Of a stretch of 11,263 bases of DNA, positions 5,182 to 11,263 are shown piece by piece; within the stretch, counting starts at the first letter, position 1; the number at the start of each line of letters is the position of its first letter. The DNA lies in assembly GCA_046727435.1 (NCBI GenBank), contig JBKPCR010000550.1, positions 1 to 11,263 on the forward strand, in the 5' to 3' direction. Below the pieces are notes generated by a model. The model was not told where the DNA came from. It did no database searches and saw only the letters and a program-made list of their open reading frames with translations. Origin of the DNA: CAVPRW01 sp046727435 [NCBI: bacterium] (lineage in GTDB: Bacteria; Tectomicrobia; Entotheonellia; J063). Made by a program: the position numbers and the translations under genes.

Positions 5182-5882
5182 GCCGGGAGCGGCTGCAGGC
5201 AGCCGGTGGTCACCACGCCATTTCCCCCTTAAGCCACCTGGCACGAGCGTGCCAACGGAGAGACCGAGGCCGGCCCCCGCAAACAACTCCCCCGGATAAT
5301 CACTGGCGCAGTGGTGATGATACCGTCGGAATCTAAGAAGACGCTCGGCGACTCCCGGGGGTTCGGGCACCGGGCCAGGGACATATCCGATGCGGCGGGC
5401 CAAGCGGAGTTGCCGGAGCTAGCGGAGGCGGCGGAGCGTCGCCGGCCGCCAAAATCCGGGCGACGAACGGAGCGCCCCTTGCGGGCGGTCGGTTCGGCCG
5501 CGCGACCACTGCCCCGATGCGTTGAGACGCCCCTTCCCTGTCACTGGCTCCATCACCAGGCGGGCGGGGGTGGCGGAAATGGTGGAGGCGGTTCCGGTGG
5601 TGGAACAGGAGGCGCTGGGTCGGGGAGCGGTGGTTCTGGAGGCGGAGGCAAGGGTGGTTCAGCCCATGATTCGCGAGGCGTCTTGGTGTCAGACTAGACA
5701 TGGGTCGCGCTCACCATGGGCATCCCTCCTGACCTTCGTGAGCACCAGGCTGCGTGTGCCTCTAGACCTCTACACAAGAGAAACTCTAAGAATACTTACC
5801 AAATAGTCTGTATGCCTCTAGAGAGGCACAGCGGCACACCGGAGCATCTTCTAGAGATATCCATCCACTACGGGATGACGTC
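5182..5882. other. Gene-poor spacer downstream of the MDR chimera
   Basis: No gene is recognised. Open frames on both strands (for example plus 5311-5697 and minus 5333-5701) have low-complexity or arginine/proline-rich products and no known motif, so they are probably artefacts of high GC. The stretch holds the glycine-codon-rich tract at 5558-5660. Near 5813-5828 there is a short imperfect stem (TGCCTCT/AGAGGCA-like) beyond the end of the rlpA-like gene, with no T-run to support a terminator. Confidence 0.4.
5558..5660 (+). repeat. GG-triplet-rich low-complexity tract
   Basis: About 100 bases made almost entirely of GGN triplets. Read in one plus frame they give a Gly/Ser linker-like run (GGGGGNGGGGSGGGTGG and onwards). 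In the frame starting at 5522 the same bases read as Val/Glu/Ala-rich. No ribosome site or domain points to real translation. It could be the linker of a decayed protein or simple-sequence drift. Confidence 0.5.
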
Positions 5883-6272
5883 TTAGGAGGCGTTCTCGAC
5901 CACGACGACTTGCACCCGTTCGGTGCTGCGTGCCAGTATTCCTACGCGCTTGGCCGCCGCTTCCGAGAGGTCGATAAGACGACCCTTGCCGCCCCCGTAC
6001 GGTCCACGGTCGTTGATTTTCACGACCACGTGCTGCTTCGTCCGAAGATTGGTGACCTTGACCTTCGTTCCCAGGGGTAAGGAGCGATGGGCCGCCGTCA
6101 ATTGCCCTCGTGAGAAGCGCTCCCCGCTGACCGTTTTCTGCCCCTGATGCGGCTTTCCATACCAGGAGGCGAAGCCCACCTGGCCGGCCTGAGCACGCCC
6201 GCCGAAGGCGAGTTCTGGTATGGGCGTGAGGAAGATTCCTACGAGCCCCACAATAGCTAGCAGTCTTCGCAT
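5883..6272 (-). CDS. rlpA: RlpA-like septal ring / cell-wall hydrolase domain protein
   Basis: A small secreted protein with the RlpA double-psi beta-barrel domain, whose family cleaves or binds denuded peptidoglycan at the division site. The 129 residues comprise a signal peptide (MRRLLAIVGLVGIFLTPIPE, likely cut after AQA at 27-29), then GFASWYG (33-39), GERFS (50-54), TAAHRSLPLGTKVKVTNL (59-76) and VKINDRGPY (84-92). His62 and Asp88 are the family's conserved active-site pair. RLIDLSEAAAKRVGI closes the barrel. There is no lipobox cysteine and no C-terminal SPOR domain, both present in E. coli RlpA, so this is a minimal soluble periplasmic form. Start ATG 6272 is backed by GGAGGG about 7 bases upstream. 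It stands alone on this strand, with the MITE-like element between it and the TerB gene. Confident domain call; enzymatic activity unproven. Confidence 0.9.
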   Translation of the reverse strand: MRRLLAIVGLVGIFLTPIPELAFGGRAQAGQVGFASWYGKPHQGQKTVSGERFSRGQLTAAHRSLPLGTKVKVTNLRTKQHVVVKINDRGPYGGGKGRLIDLSEAAAKRVGILARSTERVQVVVVENAS

Positions 6273-6801: not shown

Positions 6802-7779
6802 CTAGCGGGAGGATAGCCGCGGGACATCTGGCGGCAATGATGCGGACGCCGCAGCGCTGGATTGTCGACGAGCGAGCATCTGCTGCAATATCCATAAGCG
6901 CTCTGCGAACGCCCAGGATGTATTGCTGCCGGGTTCGCTTGGATCTCCAACAGCCGCATGGAGCTTGGCCTTCGCCGTGAGGTAGCCGACAGCATCCTGA
7001 AGATTGCGCACGGCCGATTGCGCGCGACGACGCCGCTCACGAGCGATCGGCAGGCGTTTTCGCTGGTAGCGGGTATGCAGCCAGCGACCGCTCAGTAAAG
7101 CCGCCGTGCCGATCAGGATGGTGGCACCGGCACCTAGCAGCATAGCCCGGCCAGATGCTGGACGTGCGAATCGCGAGAACATTTCTGACAGACTGACGGC
7201 GCCGATGATGCTGGAAAAGTATAGGGCGATGGCAGAGAGGCTTACACCCGCGACAAGCCACAGGCCATACTTATATTTCAACGCTGTGGCGCCCTCGTGG
7301 TAGTCGCGTGGACGGGCGCGGATCAATCCAACGTTGCAAATATAGCGTTCGATCGCCTCGATCTGCTTTTGGCTGATACGGAGGGAGGTCCTGGCCTGGA
7401 GCAGGGCTTCATCTTCGCCGGCAGCGAGGGTGCGATCGGCAAGCGCGATCTCAATCAAGTAGACCATGACGGCACATCGCACTTGGTCAGGACTGGTTGC
7501 GAAGCTGGCCAGGCAATCGGTCAGCGGTGGAGTATCGACCAGATACTCCCAGATCGTATTTCTGCTACGATCTGAGAGGCCATCGGTATGGATGTTCTGG
7601 AAAATCAAGTCCAATTCGTCCTGTCCGCAGGTGCCGTCAGCGGCGGCGATGGCGAGCATCGCGCCGTAGAAGGCGAGGCGCTGGGCTTCGGGTAGAGAGC
7701 AGAGATCGAGTAGCTCACCCACGCCGACAGCGTTTGGAGGGTCGATATTGGCTGTCATCGTCATGTATTCCCCTGACAT
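6802..7779 (-). CDS. TerB-domain membrane protein
   Basis: A 325-residue protein of unknown role with a TerB-like N-terminal helical domain. TerB domains bind metal ions through acidic residues and occur in tellurite-resistance and stress systems, often tied to membranes. The evidence is FYGAMLAIAAADGTCGQDEL at residues 37-56 and a second, similar acidic repeat, IALADRTLAAGEDEALL, at 111-127. Two membrane helices follow (about 172-195 and 211-231) and then a strongly basic stretch (KRLPIARERRRRAQ) that should be cytoplasmic, then an Ala/Ser-rich tail. No other ter genes are nearby, so tellurite resistance should not be assumed. ATG 7779 has AGAGGT 4 bases upstream. ATG 7764, five codons in, has an equally good AGGGG and could be the true start. 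The gene is divergent from the luciferase-like gene. Confidence 0.75.
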   Translation of the reverse strand: MSGEYMTMTANIDPPNAVGVGELLDLCSLPEAQRLAFYGAMLAIAAADGTCGQDELDLIFQNIHTDGLSDRSRNTIWEYLVDTPPLTDCLASFATSPDQVRCAVMVYLIEIALADRTLAAGEDEALLQARTSLRISQKQIEAIERYICNVGLIRARPRDYHEGATALKYKYGLWLVAGVSLSAIALYFSSIIGAVSLSEMFSRFARPASGRAMLLGAGATILIGTAALLSGRWLHTRYQRKRLPIARERRRRAQSAVRNLQDAVGYLTAKAKLHAAVGDPSEPGSNTSWAFAERLWILQQMLARRQSSAAASASLPPDVPRLSSR

Positions 7780-8955: not shown

Positions 8956-9016
8956 CTCGGCGCCTGATCGTCGAGATCGGCCAATAGCCACGATGAATGG
9001 ATGTGGGGATGGAGAG

Positions 9017-9724
9017 ATGAATATCGCCAAACGGCTGCAAGATCTTGACTGGAAGGCCATCGAGCAGGCGCTCTGGAACATGGGGTACGCCAAGACACCG
9101 GCCGTGCTCACAGCAGATGAGTGCGAGGAGCTGATCAGTCTGTATGCGGATCAGACCAGATTTCGTCGTCGCGTCGACATGGAACGGCATCGCTTCGGGG
9201 TCGGCGAATACCAATACTTTGCCGAGCCGCTGCCAGCGCTGGTGCAGGGCTTGCGTCTGTCGACCTATCCCCCGCTGGCCCCCATTGCCAATGGCTGGAT
9301 GGAGGCCCTCAGGCAACCGCAGCGTTATCCGGCCGACCTCCCAAGTTTTCTGGCGCGCTGTCAGGAGCATGGGCAAACCAAACCCACACCCTTGCTGCTG
9401 CACTATGAGACAGGGGGCTACAATTGTCTGCATCAAGACCTCTACGGTGAGATCGCCTTTCCCCTCCAGCTCACCTGTTTTCTGAGTCGACGCGAGGTCG
9501 ATTACACCGGCGGCGAGTTTCTTCTCGTCGAGCAACGGCCACGGGCGCAGTCTCGTGGAGAGGCGATCGCGACCGAGCAGGGAGAGATCATCATCTTTGC
9601 TACACGCGACAGGCCTGCTGCCGGGGCTCGTGGTTATCACCGCCTGCAGATGCGCCATGGCGTGAGCCGCATCAGGTCTGGTCAACGCTACGCCCTCGGC
9701 ATTATTTTTCACAATGCCACGTAA
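9017..9724 (+). CDS. 2-oxoglutarate/Fe(II)-dependent oxygenase
   Basis: A 235-residue enzyme of the 2OG-Fe(II) dioxygenase fold, which couples 2-oxoglutarate decarboxylation to hydroxylation of a substrate, with a Pro-4-hydroxylase-like C-terminal half. The facial triad is visible as His139-x-Asp141 (NCLHQDLYGE) and His214 (RHGVSRIRSGQRY). Arg220 or Arg224 is well placed to bind 2-oxoglutarate. FPLQLTCFLSR and YTGGEFLLVEQ (163-173) are typical strands of this group, and KPTPLLLHYETGGYNCLHQD is characteristic of a bacterial subfamily annotated only as 2OG oxygenase. ATG 9017 is preferred (GGGGATGGAGAG before it); an in-frame ATG at 8993 has no ribosome site. It lies between the flavin enzyme and the thioesterase on one strand. 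The substrate is unknown; it could be a protein residue or a small molecule. Confidence 0.85.
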   Translation: MNIAKRLQDLDWKAIEQALWNMGYAKTPAVLTADECEELISLYADQTRFRRRVDMERHRFGVGEYQYFAEPLPALVQGLRLSTYPPLAPIANGWMEALRQPQRYPADLPSFLARCQEHGQTKPTPLLLHYETGGYNCLHQDLYGEIAFPLQLTCFLSRREVDYTGGEFLLVEQRPRAQSRGEAIATEQGEIIIFATRDRPAAGARGYHRLQMRHGVSRIRSGQRYALGIIFHNAT

Positions 9725-9818
9725 ACGCCATAACAATCCTCCTGCCATCCGCGTAACGTTTCGTCGTGTTCCCTGTTATCTCTTGTGAAGGCATGATCGC
9801 ATGAGTAGGAGGATGACC

Positions 9819-10286
9819 ATGGCCGGTGATCCGATTGACCCTAAAATTGCCGCGGAACGCCTCAATGAACGCGCCAAAGGCACGAATGTCGAGGCACGCG
9901 GCACGCATTTTCTCGAAGTCAGCGCTGAGCGTGCTGTGGCGGAACTGGCCTTCCGCCCAGACCTGGCCCAACTCACAGGCCTGTTTCACGGCGGCGTCAT
10001 CCTCAGCCTGGCGGATGAGACCGCAACAGCGTGTAGTGTGGCCAGCGTCATGCCTGACGGCGTGTGGGACCCGGCTAAGTTCCCCTTGACGATCCAGCTC
10101 AGCGCCAATCTGATCCGCAATACGAACACCGGCAAGCTGATCGCCGAGGCGGTTCCCCTGCATCGGGGCCGCACCAGCATGGTCCTGCAGACCACCGTGC
10201 GGGATGAGCAGGGGCGGGTGATGGCGGTGATCACGGCGACGCTACTTGTGCTCGATCGTTCGTCAACAGACCGAAGTAGTACGTAG
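9819..10286 (+). CDS. PaaI-family hotdog-fold acyl-CoA thioesterase
   Basis: A 155-residue hotdog thioesterase predicted to hydrolyse acyl- or aryl-CoA thioesters in the cytoplasm. The family signature is clear: LTGLFHGGVILSLADETAT at 52-70, with the HGG of the central helix and Asp66/Glu67 as the expected catalytic acids. The strands TIQLSANLIRN (91-101), GKLIAEAVPLHRGRTSMVLQ and RVMAVITATLLVL complete the fold. The start is ATG 9819: AGGAGG at 9807-9812 is 6 bases away. Two upstream in-frame ATGs (9801, 9813) lie before or touching the ribosome site. It sits 94 bases after the 2OG oxygenase and 50 before the sigma factor, so it may join either neighbour's transcript. The substrate cannot be inferred. 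Confidence 0.88.
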   Translation: MAGDPIDPKIAAERLNERAKGTNVEARGTHFLEVSAERAVAELAFRPDLAQLTGLFHGGVILSLADETATACSVASVMPDGVWDPAKFPLTIQLSANLIRNTNTGKLIAEAVPLHRGRTSMVLQTTVRDEQGRVMAVITATLLVLDRSSTDRSST

Positions 10287-10336
10287 GCGGCTGCAACCAT
10301 CGTGGCGGCTATTGGACCGATCCCAGAGCGAGTGTG

Positions 10337-10918
10337 ATGGATTCTCTGACTCCTCTTACCGACAGCGACGAAGCGTTGGTTGCCCGTGCCAAACGCGACC
10401 GCGAGGCGTTTGGGTGCCTCTACGATCGCTACGTCGAACAGGTGTATCAATTCACCTACCGCCGGGTAAAGGACCATACGATCGCCGAGGATATCACGGC
10501 CCGCGTGTTCTTTCGCGCCCTCGAGCAGTTGCCACGCTTCGAATGGCGCGGCATTCCCTTTGGCGGATGGCTGATACGCATCGCCGCCAATCTTATCCAT
10601 GATCATCATGGCGATGCACAACGCCATGTCTCGCTGCGCGAGTGGGCTGAGGATGCCATGGATATGGCTGCATCTGACCCACCCGTGGAGGAGCAATCCG
10701 CTGCCCGTCAGACGGCGAGTGTGCTATGGCAAACGGTCTCCGCGCTGCCCATGGCCGAACAACAGGTATTAGTCTACCGCTTCGCCCGTGACATGAGCAT
10801 GCGTGAGATCGCTACCACACTGGGGCGGACGGAGGGGGCGGTGAAGCAGTTGCTGTTCCGGGCTGTGAAGCGTTTACGGCAGCGGCTACAGCAGATAGGA
10901 TTTGTCGATGAACCGTGA
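10337..10918 (+). CDS. ECF-type RNA polymerase sigma factor
   Basis: A 193-residue sigma-70 family factor of the extracytoplasmic-function type. Region 2 spans residues 22-92: AFGCLYDRYVEQVYQFTYRR, then the -10 recognition helix with IAEDITARVFFRALEQLPRF and GGWLIRIAANLIHDHH. An acidic linker follows (100-125). Region 4 at 136-183 has LPMAEQQVLVYRFARDMSMR, EIATTLGRTEGAVKQLLFRA and VKRLRQRL, the helix-turn-helix for the -35 element. A GTG at 10334 directly precedes the ATG and could serve instead; the upstream ribosome site is weak. The gene overlaps the next one by 11 bases, the usual layout for a sigma factor and its partner regulator. Its signal is unknown, but the partner suggests DNA alkylation or another chemical stress. 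Confidence 0.93.
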   Translation: MDSLTPLTDSDEALVARAKRDREAFGCLYDRYVEQVYQFTYRRVKDHTIAEDITARVFFRALEQLPRFEWRGIPFGGWLIRIAANLIHDHHGDAQRHVSLREWAEDAMDMAASDPPVEEQSAARQTASVLWQTVSALPMAEQQVLVYRFARDMSMREIATTLGRTEGAVKQLLFRAVKRLRQRLQQIGFVDEP

Positions 10919-11263
10919 ACGGAGCCAAGTCGAAACGTTTGCCACAGCGGTTGATCGCCTGCTCGATCAGGGCATCCCTCCAGTGGTCGGGAGCGCGGAT
11001 GAGCCCCTGCTCGATCTAGCCATTCGTTTGCGGCAAACCGCGTCGCCCACTATAATCGATCCGCGCTTTCGGGCCAGCCTGCGCCAACGCCTGTTGCAGT
11101 CAGAGGGCTTTGTAGATCTCGCGGAGGGGCGCTACGCCGTGCTGGATACCGCCGTTGGGCGGCTGCACATTGCCTATCGCGGCCGGGTGATCTGCGGCGT
11201 CAGTCTGGCAAGCGATGATGCGACGTTTGAACAACGCTGCATGGCACGCCATGGCCTACAGCT
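10908..11263 (+). CDS. Anti-sigma-like protein fused to an alkyltransferase-like domain, partial
   Basis: This gene is cut by the right edge; 118 codons are visible from ATG 10908, with ATAGGA about 8 bases upstream. Residues 1-64 resemble the N-termini of proteins encoded next to ECF sigma factors in Chloroflexi/Actinobacteria-like genomes: acidic and helical, then IIDPRFRASLRQRLLQ, a pattern of the form DPxFRxxLRxRLL. Residues 74-118 (GRYAVLDTAVGRLHIAYRGR, then VICGVSL, DDATFEQRCMARHG) closely follow the N-terminal ribonuclease-H-like domain of O6-methylguanine-DNA methyltransferases (Ogt/Ada type). The catalytic PCHR motif would lie beyond the edge, so activity cannot be judged. The start lies inside the sigma gene, indicating translational coupling. 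Domain readings come from remembered patterns; the fusion is seen, its function inferred. Confidence 0.65.
   Translation, partial: MNRERSQVETFATAVDRLLDQGIPPVVGSADEPLLDLAIRLRQTASPTIIDPRFRASLRQRLLQSEGFVDLAEGRYAVLDTAVGRLHIAYRGRVICGVSLASDDATFEQRCMARHGLQ

Follow-up and report, generated by a model that had tools for sequence, protein, structure and literature searches.

Two overlapping genes at the end of the window, as we call the whole 11,263-nucleotide stretch of DNA analysed here, very probably encode a BldN-like ECF sigma factor and, behind it, a protein in which an RsbN-class anti-sigma domain continues in frame into an MGMT-like domain, judging by profile and structure-library comparisons. 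On balance, we lean slightly towards reading this protein as a soluble anti-sigma factor made of an ASDIII and an MGMT domain, in which release of the sigma factor would be tied to alkyl transfer. Adjoining ECF sigma and MGMT genes also recur elsewhere: among the Actinomycetota loci read we found 63 such pairs, in 49 of which the MGMT lacks a C-terminal Ada zinc domain (type A) and in 14 of which it carries one (type B). The features of the window on which the argument draws are the following:

8993..9724, + strand: 2OG-Fe(II) oxygenase, PF09859 (Oxygenase-NA), E 6e-78
9752..9779, + strand: candidate BldN-type promoter, weak, CGTAAC-N16-TGTTAT, 5' of the 4HBT gene; 9/12 to the BldN motif
9801..10286, + strand: 4HBT thioesterase-like gene (PF03061, E 1.7e-11), just upstream of the sigma gene, 50 bases to the ATG at 10337
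10337..10918, + strand: BldN-like ECF sigma gene, 193 aa from the ATG at 10337; GTG at 10334 is an alternative start
10897..10900, + strand: AGGA, possible ribosome-binding site judged from its sequence, within the sigma gene, 7 nt 5' of the ATG at 10908
10908..11263, + strand: second gene, putative anti-sigma/MGMT-like fusion, from the ATG at 10908; 118 residues visible, open at the window end
10908..10918, + strand: overlap of the sigma gene and the second gene, 11 bases
10926..11099, + strand: putative RsbN-class (ASDIII) anti-sigma domain, residues 7-64 (profile match, hhalign); three predicted helices, low confidence
11124..11261, + strand: putative start of an MGMT N-domain (Methyltransf_1N-like), residues 73-118 (PF02870, 1sfe, 44-MGMT profile, decoy control)

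The sigma factor and its putative anti-sigma/MGMT partner

To which class does the sigma factor belong? Both conserved sigma regions were recovered by Pfam (Sigma70_r2, E 2.3e-14; Sigma70_r4, E 7.9e-13), and the top NCBIfam family was TIGR02952, the BldN family, at 133.7 bits, which is below its curated cut-off of 206. The best PDB chain was 6dxo_A (E 6.5e-26), which we take to be BldN of the BldN/RsbN complex. In a tree of all 66 rows the window's sigma factor grouped with 22 BldN-like rows (support 83/91), and it grouped with 20 BldN-like rows at 100/99 once nine hand-picked rows, consisting of long branches and near-copies, had been removed. Its 30 top relatives in 296 Actinomycetota genomes are BldN-like as well (37-43% identical), and in 15 of these 30 loci an RsbN-like gene lies behind the sigma gene. 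The window has both its sigma class and its putative anti-sigma domain in common with BldN/RsbN of Streptomyces.

What is encoded behind this sigma factor? The second gene follows directly, and the 11-base overlap described in the initial annotation was confirmed at 10908-10918. The same annotation had seen an ECF-partner-like N-terminus in the second product, and this held up: residues 7-64 match the ASDIII domains encoded behind BldN-like sigma factors, a class covered in the accessible text of PMC7406223 and PMC8103513. An ordinary MGMT extension, the competing identity it had named for residues 1-64, was not found, and the match was to sigma partners instead. Against a 22-member ASDIII profile these residues scored 22.5 bits, a value reached by 0 of 20,000 shuffles, the best of which scored 17.5. 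The profile combined 15 genes from behind BldN-like sigmas with 7 of 11 Streptomyces RsbN N-termini; because its members had been picked by eye with the window already seen, and 15 of 30 genes discarded as unlike, leave-out tests were run. Without the six members closest to the window the score was 16.1 bits, again with 0 of 20,000 shuffles as high, and genuine members left out one at a time scored at least 23.7 bits, so that the window's 22.5 stands near the lowest of them. Profile-profile comparison of residues 7-64 with ASDIII (hhalign) gave a probability of 92.6 and a P of 4.6e-7. A profile built from Streptomyces RsbN only gave the window's protein a nonsignificant E of 0.025, with many shuffles higher, and was dropped as stand-alone evidence because shuffles outscored it.

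Among 3,090 decoy ORFs only two exceeded 13.1 bits against the ASDIII profile, namely the RsbN of L004 (35.1) and an ORF of L003 (18.3) that bears a DPRFRA motif and lies behind an Actinomadura BldN-like sigma; this decoy set excludes loci L077-L106 and had its starts set crudely, and most genuine RsbN are therefore missed in it. Short ORFs with a DPRFRA..LRERL-type motif occur behind the Actinomadura BldN-like sigma in L001, L002, L003 and L007 (near 5780-5825), and these are possibly miniature ASDIII anti-sigmas.

How much of an alkyltransferase can be recognised in the remainder of the second product? Residues 75-112 match PF02870, the sole Pfam family found up to E 1, at an E of 0.05 and 14.6 bits (model positions 2-37 of 71), the cut-off being 21 bits. 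In NCBIfam the segment matches Ada (E 0.037), and its top PDB chain is 1sfe, the MGMT of E. coli Ada (E 0.057). We also built a profile from 44 MGMTs of Actinomycetota (30 of type A, 27 of them with a sigma gene upstream, and 14 of type B), against which residues 73-118 scored 13.5 bits, compared with a shuffle maximum of 10.8 (0 of 20,000). With the type A profile alone the window and the best shuffle both scored 11.5 bits, and with the type B profile alone the window's 8.4 fell short of the best shuffle's 9.9; as shuffles equalled or beat the window in both, only the joint profile clears every shuffle. When the 3,090 decoy ORFs were scored against the MGMT profile, ten at 8.6-29.1 bits were MGMT-like by eye, and the next, at 8.5, was unlike; the 40 decoy rows above 40 bits all trace to loci that had been retrieved on account of an MGMT or an Ada zinc domain. 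A PF02870 match up to E 0.01 is likewise absent from two full type B MGMTs. The alkyltransferase N-terminal segment proposed in the initial annotation is therefore retained as a resemblance to the MGMT N-domain that recurs in Pfam, NCBIfam, the PDB, the joint profile and the decoy comparison, with the PF02870 match itself below cut-off. What is visible of the MGMT-like part is confined to the N-domain, and a PCHR motif and DNA-binding domain would fall past base 11263.

Predicted structure is compatible with this domain order. AlphaFold reached a pLDDT of 48 for the second product alone and 60 when nine RsbN rows were supplied; from these poor models, the predicted succession of three helices, four strands and one helix fits an ASDIII domain followed by an MGMT N-domain. 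Searches with Foldseek and VIA-align yielded no match within the thresholds used (E <=0.001 and Z >=5, respectively); MGMT or RsbN chains were absent from the rows listed, so these null results exclude nothing. The accessible text of PMC8103513 describes RsbN as membrane-anchored, whereas the window's ASDIII domain appears to run straight into the MGMT-like domain: no membrane segment is evident in the 118 residues visible of this cut gene, and the prediction is beta-rich after residue 66.

Recurring pairs of ECF sigma and MGMT genes

How widespread is the arrangement? A tblastn search with the second-gene product matched 76 of the 296 Actinomycetota genomes at E <=0.1. A six-frame profile scan of 20 of these loci recovered a single MGMT, in L026; sigma-like ORFs turned up in L025, L026, L036 and L037, and an ASDIII domain in none of the 20. 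A motif search of twelve further weak rows recovered no MGMT. Loci L028 and L046, which match query residues 32-67 at 57% identity, were rejected as relatives, as neither a sigma factor nor an MGMT is present there. The MGMT of L026 has matches in 265 of the 296 genomes at E <=1e-10, and in 27 of the best 30 loci from this list an ECF sigma gene lies directly upstream of the MGMT; in two of the three exceptions (L061 and L070) the contig ends at that point. The count of 63 pairs drew on these 30 loci, on 20 retrieved through a weak match to the Ada zinc domain (an MGMT was present in 14 of the 20), and on 40 more, 22 of them with the pair, of which four were chosen for PF09859 and the rest were taken down the L026-MGMT match list, not at random. 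The match lists for MGMT and Ada zinc are longer than the loci fetched, and the 63 are the pairs that were read. Ogt/MGMT enzymes, with which the window shares the N-domain and the 63 pairs the active-site cysteine too, also occur without a sigma partner: 27 MGMT rows have no ECF sigma directly upstream, a number that includes contig ends and the second MGMTs of pair loci. A second MGMT row was seen in each of L060, L065, L162, L175, L177 and L183, the one in L175 preceding the sigma gene on the same strand.

By motif, the active-site cysteine is kept in all 63 sigma-linked MGMTs. A 4-nt overlap with the sigma stop was found in 43 of the 63, the MGMT start being placed at the earliest ATG or GTG in a scan beginning some 40 nt 5' of that stop; a pair on plasmid 2 of Rubrobacter radiotolerans RSPS-4 (WP_051590067.1 and WP_084264190.1) has an 11-nt overlap, as in the window. 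Are the N-terminal extensions of these MGMTs anti-sigma domains as well? Grouped by type, they gave no significant match to ASDIII, with P 0.038 for type A and 0.49 for type B. When they were scored individually, L074 came out highest of the 63 at 12.7 bits (P 7e-6, uncorrected for 63 trials), and the other 62 scored at most 6.3 bits, against 23.8 for the window's first 80 residues. The pairs therefore do not show the window's fusion, and the weak match of L074 suggests, tentatively, that type A extensions could be reduced anti-sigma domains. No recurring anti-sigma gene was noticed downstream of the pairs in the 58 of 63 that were callable, judged by eye over the first 60 residues. In L149, L150, L152-L162 and L168 the ECF sigma gene is followed by an MGMT with a C-terminal Ada zinc domain, so that both acceptor domains of Ada occur in reverse order within one protein. 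A membrane protein that by its motif resembles an EamA transporter is encoded after the sigma-linked MGMT in L047, L050, L051, L053, L054 and L157.

The initial annotation had suggested looking for the same fusion beside ECF genes in other genomes. What recurs there is the sigma/MGMT pair, the fused form being found in the window only: no second copy of the ASDIII-MGMT architecture turned up in genome contigs, in plasmids, in viral contigs or in the 296 Actinomycetota genomes. An exact-pattern search of viral contigs with bases near the window end gave no match, and comparison of the window's sigma factor and oxygenase with viral contigs gave nothing useful.

Do the MGMT-linked sigma factors share one origin with that of the window? 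The sigma tree held 41 of the 63 MGMT-linked sigmas. Type A sigmas formed one clade (27 rows, 100/100), and type B sigmas formed two (10 rows, 100/96; 4 rows, 100/99), with type B appearing as a single group in 56% of bootstrap trees. A clade of the window with type A was rejected (AU p 0.0014), as was one with type B (p 0.001); a clade of the window with 36 MGMT-linked sigmas, evaluated on the tree reduced by nine rows, was not (p 0.13). Separate origins are thus possible, and the coupling of sigma factor and MGMT may have arisen once or several times.

How do these pairs relate to described groups? For ECF122, the accessible text of PMC8999054, which cites Casas-Pastor et al. 2021 for the group, lists neither a cognate anti-sigma nor a mechanism; the conserved neighbours that it names, which might act as regulators, are 6-O-methylguanine DNA methyltransferases. 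As in ECF122, an ECF sigma gene adjoins an MGMT gene in the window, as far as the visible N-domain allows; unlike ECF122 as listed in that text, the window's sigma is BldN-like and carries a putative ASDIII partner. We infer that type A or type B pairs may correspond to ECF122. Pairing of an ECF sigma with an MGMT is therefore already in print, as ECF122, in the accessible text of PMC8999054; an anti-sigma/MGMT fusion was not found there, nor in the accessible literature on ECF sigmas, anti-sigmas, and methylguanine methyltransferases or alkylation, PMC2587704 included.

A proposed damage-responsive mechanism and its alternatives

How might such a protein operate? At rest, the ASDIII domain would hold the ECF sigma factor encoded upstream. 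The MGMT part would accept an alkyl group from DNA onto an active-site cysteine, presumed for this copy; in known MGMTs, alkyl transfer to the cysteine is irreversible. The alkylated protein might then change shape or undergo degradation, by which the sigma factor would be freed, and the freed sigma factor would transcribe its own operon and perhaps nearby repair genes such as that of the PF09859 oxygenase. These steps differ in how far we would trust them. The second-gene product probably inhibits the window's sigma factor, while for release of the sigma factor by alkylation we see the odds as about even. E. coli Ada, a repair protein that doubles as an alkylation sensor, offers a likeness, as in the window's proposed system an alkyl-acceptor protein would likewise switch transcription. 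Unlike in Ada, neither an Ada zinc domain nor an AraC helix-turn-helix is found in the visible part of the window's protein (Pfam up to E 1), and it is a sigma factor that would carry the output; the zinc domain is found elsewhere, at the C-terminus of the type B proteins.

A broader conception, which we hold to be somewhat less likely than not, is that of a sigma inhibitor which is itself a suicide repair enzyme and would act as a damage counter, with one inhibitor lost per lesion. The window would represent its full form, the 63 pairs would work by the same principle through sigma-binding ends that are shorter and for the most part not recognised, and type B, where the MGMT and an Ada zinc domain share one protein, would be an Ada that has been dismantled and rewired to a sigma factor. 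If the proposal is true, bacteria have reached Ada's trick, the use of a repair protein as a sensor, by another route, and the ECF122-type pairing of sigma factor and MGMT, so far unexplained, gains a concrete and testable mechanism. The domain fusion also points to which part should bind the sigma factor. Anti-sigma factors read many signals, and we know of none that senses DNA alkylation through performing the repair.

Three other explanations have to be weighed. It is conceivable, though we think it unlikely, that the MGMT is merely an effector: the sigma factor would drive an operon with a repair gene in it, its own activity being governed by other means, such as control of transcription. 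The N-terminal domain would then be a relic or serve some other use. The absence of significant ASDIII matches from type A and type B extensions as groups is in keeping with this, as is the place of ECF122 among the groups without a cognate anti-sigma in the accessible text of PMC8999054; however, the window's ASDIII domain resembles the partners of its own sigma class, and the downstream genes inspected by eye (first 60 residues, 58 of 63 pairs) offered no recurring anti-sigma.

The remaining two concern the reality of the fusion, and we give each of them little credence. The second product might be an ordinary ASDIII anti-sigma with some other beta-rich C-terminal sensor, its MGMT match being due to chance. 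Yet the same domain was placed at the same position by three libraries, the joint profile put the window above all 20,000 shuffles and above the best decoy without MGMT likeness (13.5 against 8.5 bits), and in 63 pairs an MGMT occupies this gene position; what speaks for chance are the marginal E values (PF02870, 0.05; NCBIfam, 0.037; PDB, 0.057), the visible length of only 46 residues, and the few of 20,000 shuffles that did as well as the window when type A and type B were profiled separately. Alternatively, a sequencing or assembly error could have fused neighbouring anti-sigma and MGMT genes in one frame, which would accord with an architecture seen in a single record with no second copy; against this, the visible frame is fully open, and the MGMT-like segment begins within about 10 residues of the last ASDIII helix.

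Promoter motifs and neighbouring genes

Is there a promoter motif common to the pairs? In 19 of the 63 pairs, the words TCACG and CGTT stand at a spacing of 16 upstream of the sigma gene; the most frequent word pair in three shuffles occurred at most 5 times. A looser pattern, TCAC(G)-N15-18-CGTT, which was derived from the same sequences in which it was counted, lies upstream of the sigma gene in 23 of the 49 pairs of type A and in none of the 14 of type B, and in 29 of 1,260 random stretches from the same loci. When ten genomes were scanned for the type A motif, each contained 2-10 sites, compared with 0-2 for a reversed control. Such a motif upstream of the type A sigma genes is as expected if these sigma factors were to regulate themselves. 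Type B pairs have a different, weaker word pair (5 of 14; at most 4 in three shuffles). In the window, the + strand of the three regions 5' of the oxygenase, 4HBT and sigma genes holds no copy of the type A motif, even with 3 mismatches allowed. The BldN promoter motif is given as CGTAACN16CGTTGA in the accessible text of PMC2375139. The 9/12 agreement of the window's CGTAAC-N16-TGTTAT with it was matched in 372 of 20,000 shuffled versions of the intergenic sequence, and over both strands the window holds six sites at 9/12 or better, one of them at 10.

Which genes accompany the pairs? PF09859, a family with activity on damaged DNA according to its Pfam description, is present in only 6 of the 296 Actinomycetota genomes, and in 4 of those 6 it adjoins a sigma/MGMT pair. 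In L175 and L176 it stands directly behind the MGMT with a 4-nt overlap, in L177 it adjoins the pair on the opposite strand, and in L178 a PF09859 fragment lies on the upstream side of the sigma gene. In the window, the PF09859 oxygenase gene and the sigma gene share a strand, the former lying upstream, and between them stands one gene, the 4HBT gene, which perhaps belongs to the operon of the sigma gene. The idea put forward in the initial annotation, an alkyl acceptor wired to a sigma factor, is in line with the 63 pairs, the promoter-like motif of type A (23 of 49) and the PF09859 association in 4 of 6 genomes, all of which fit a damage-responsive circuit; the binding and release of the sigma factor would be its predicted steps. 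Elsewhere in the window, two ORFs in different frames at 558-1634 resemble one transposase (PF01609 in the second) and are perhaps a decayed insertion element, and on the minus strand a TerB/DUF533-like protein (6802-7779) and an RlpA-like double-psi beta-barrel protein (5883-6272) are encoded.
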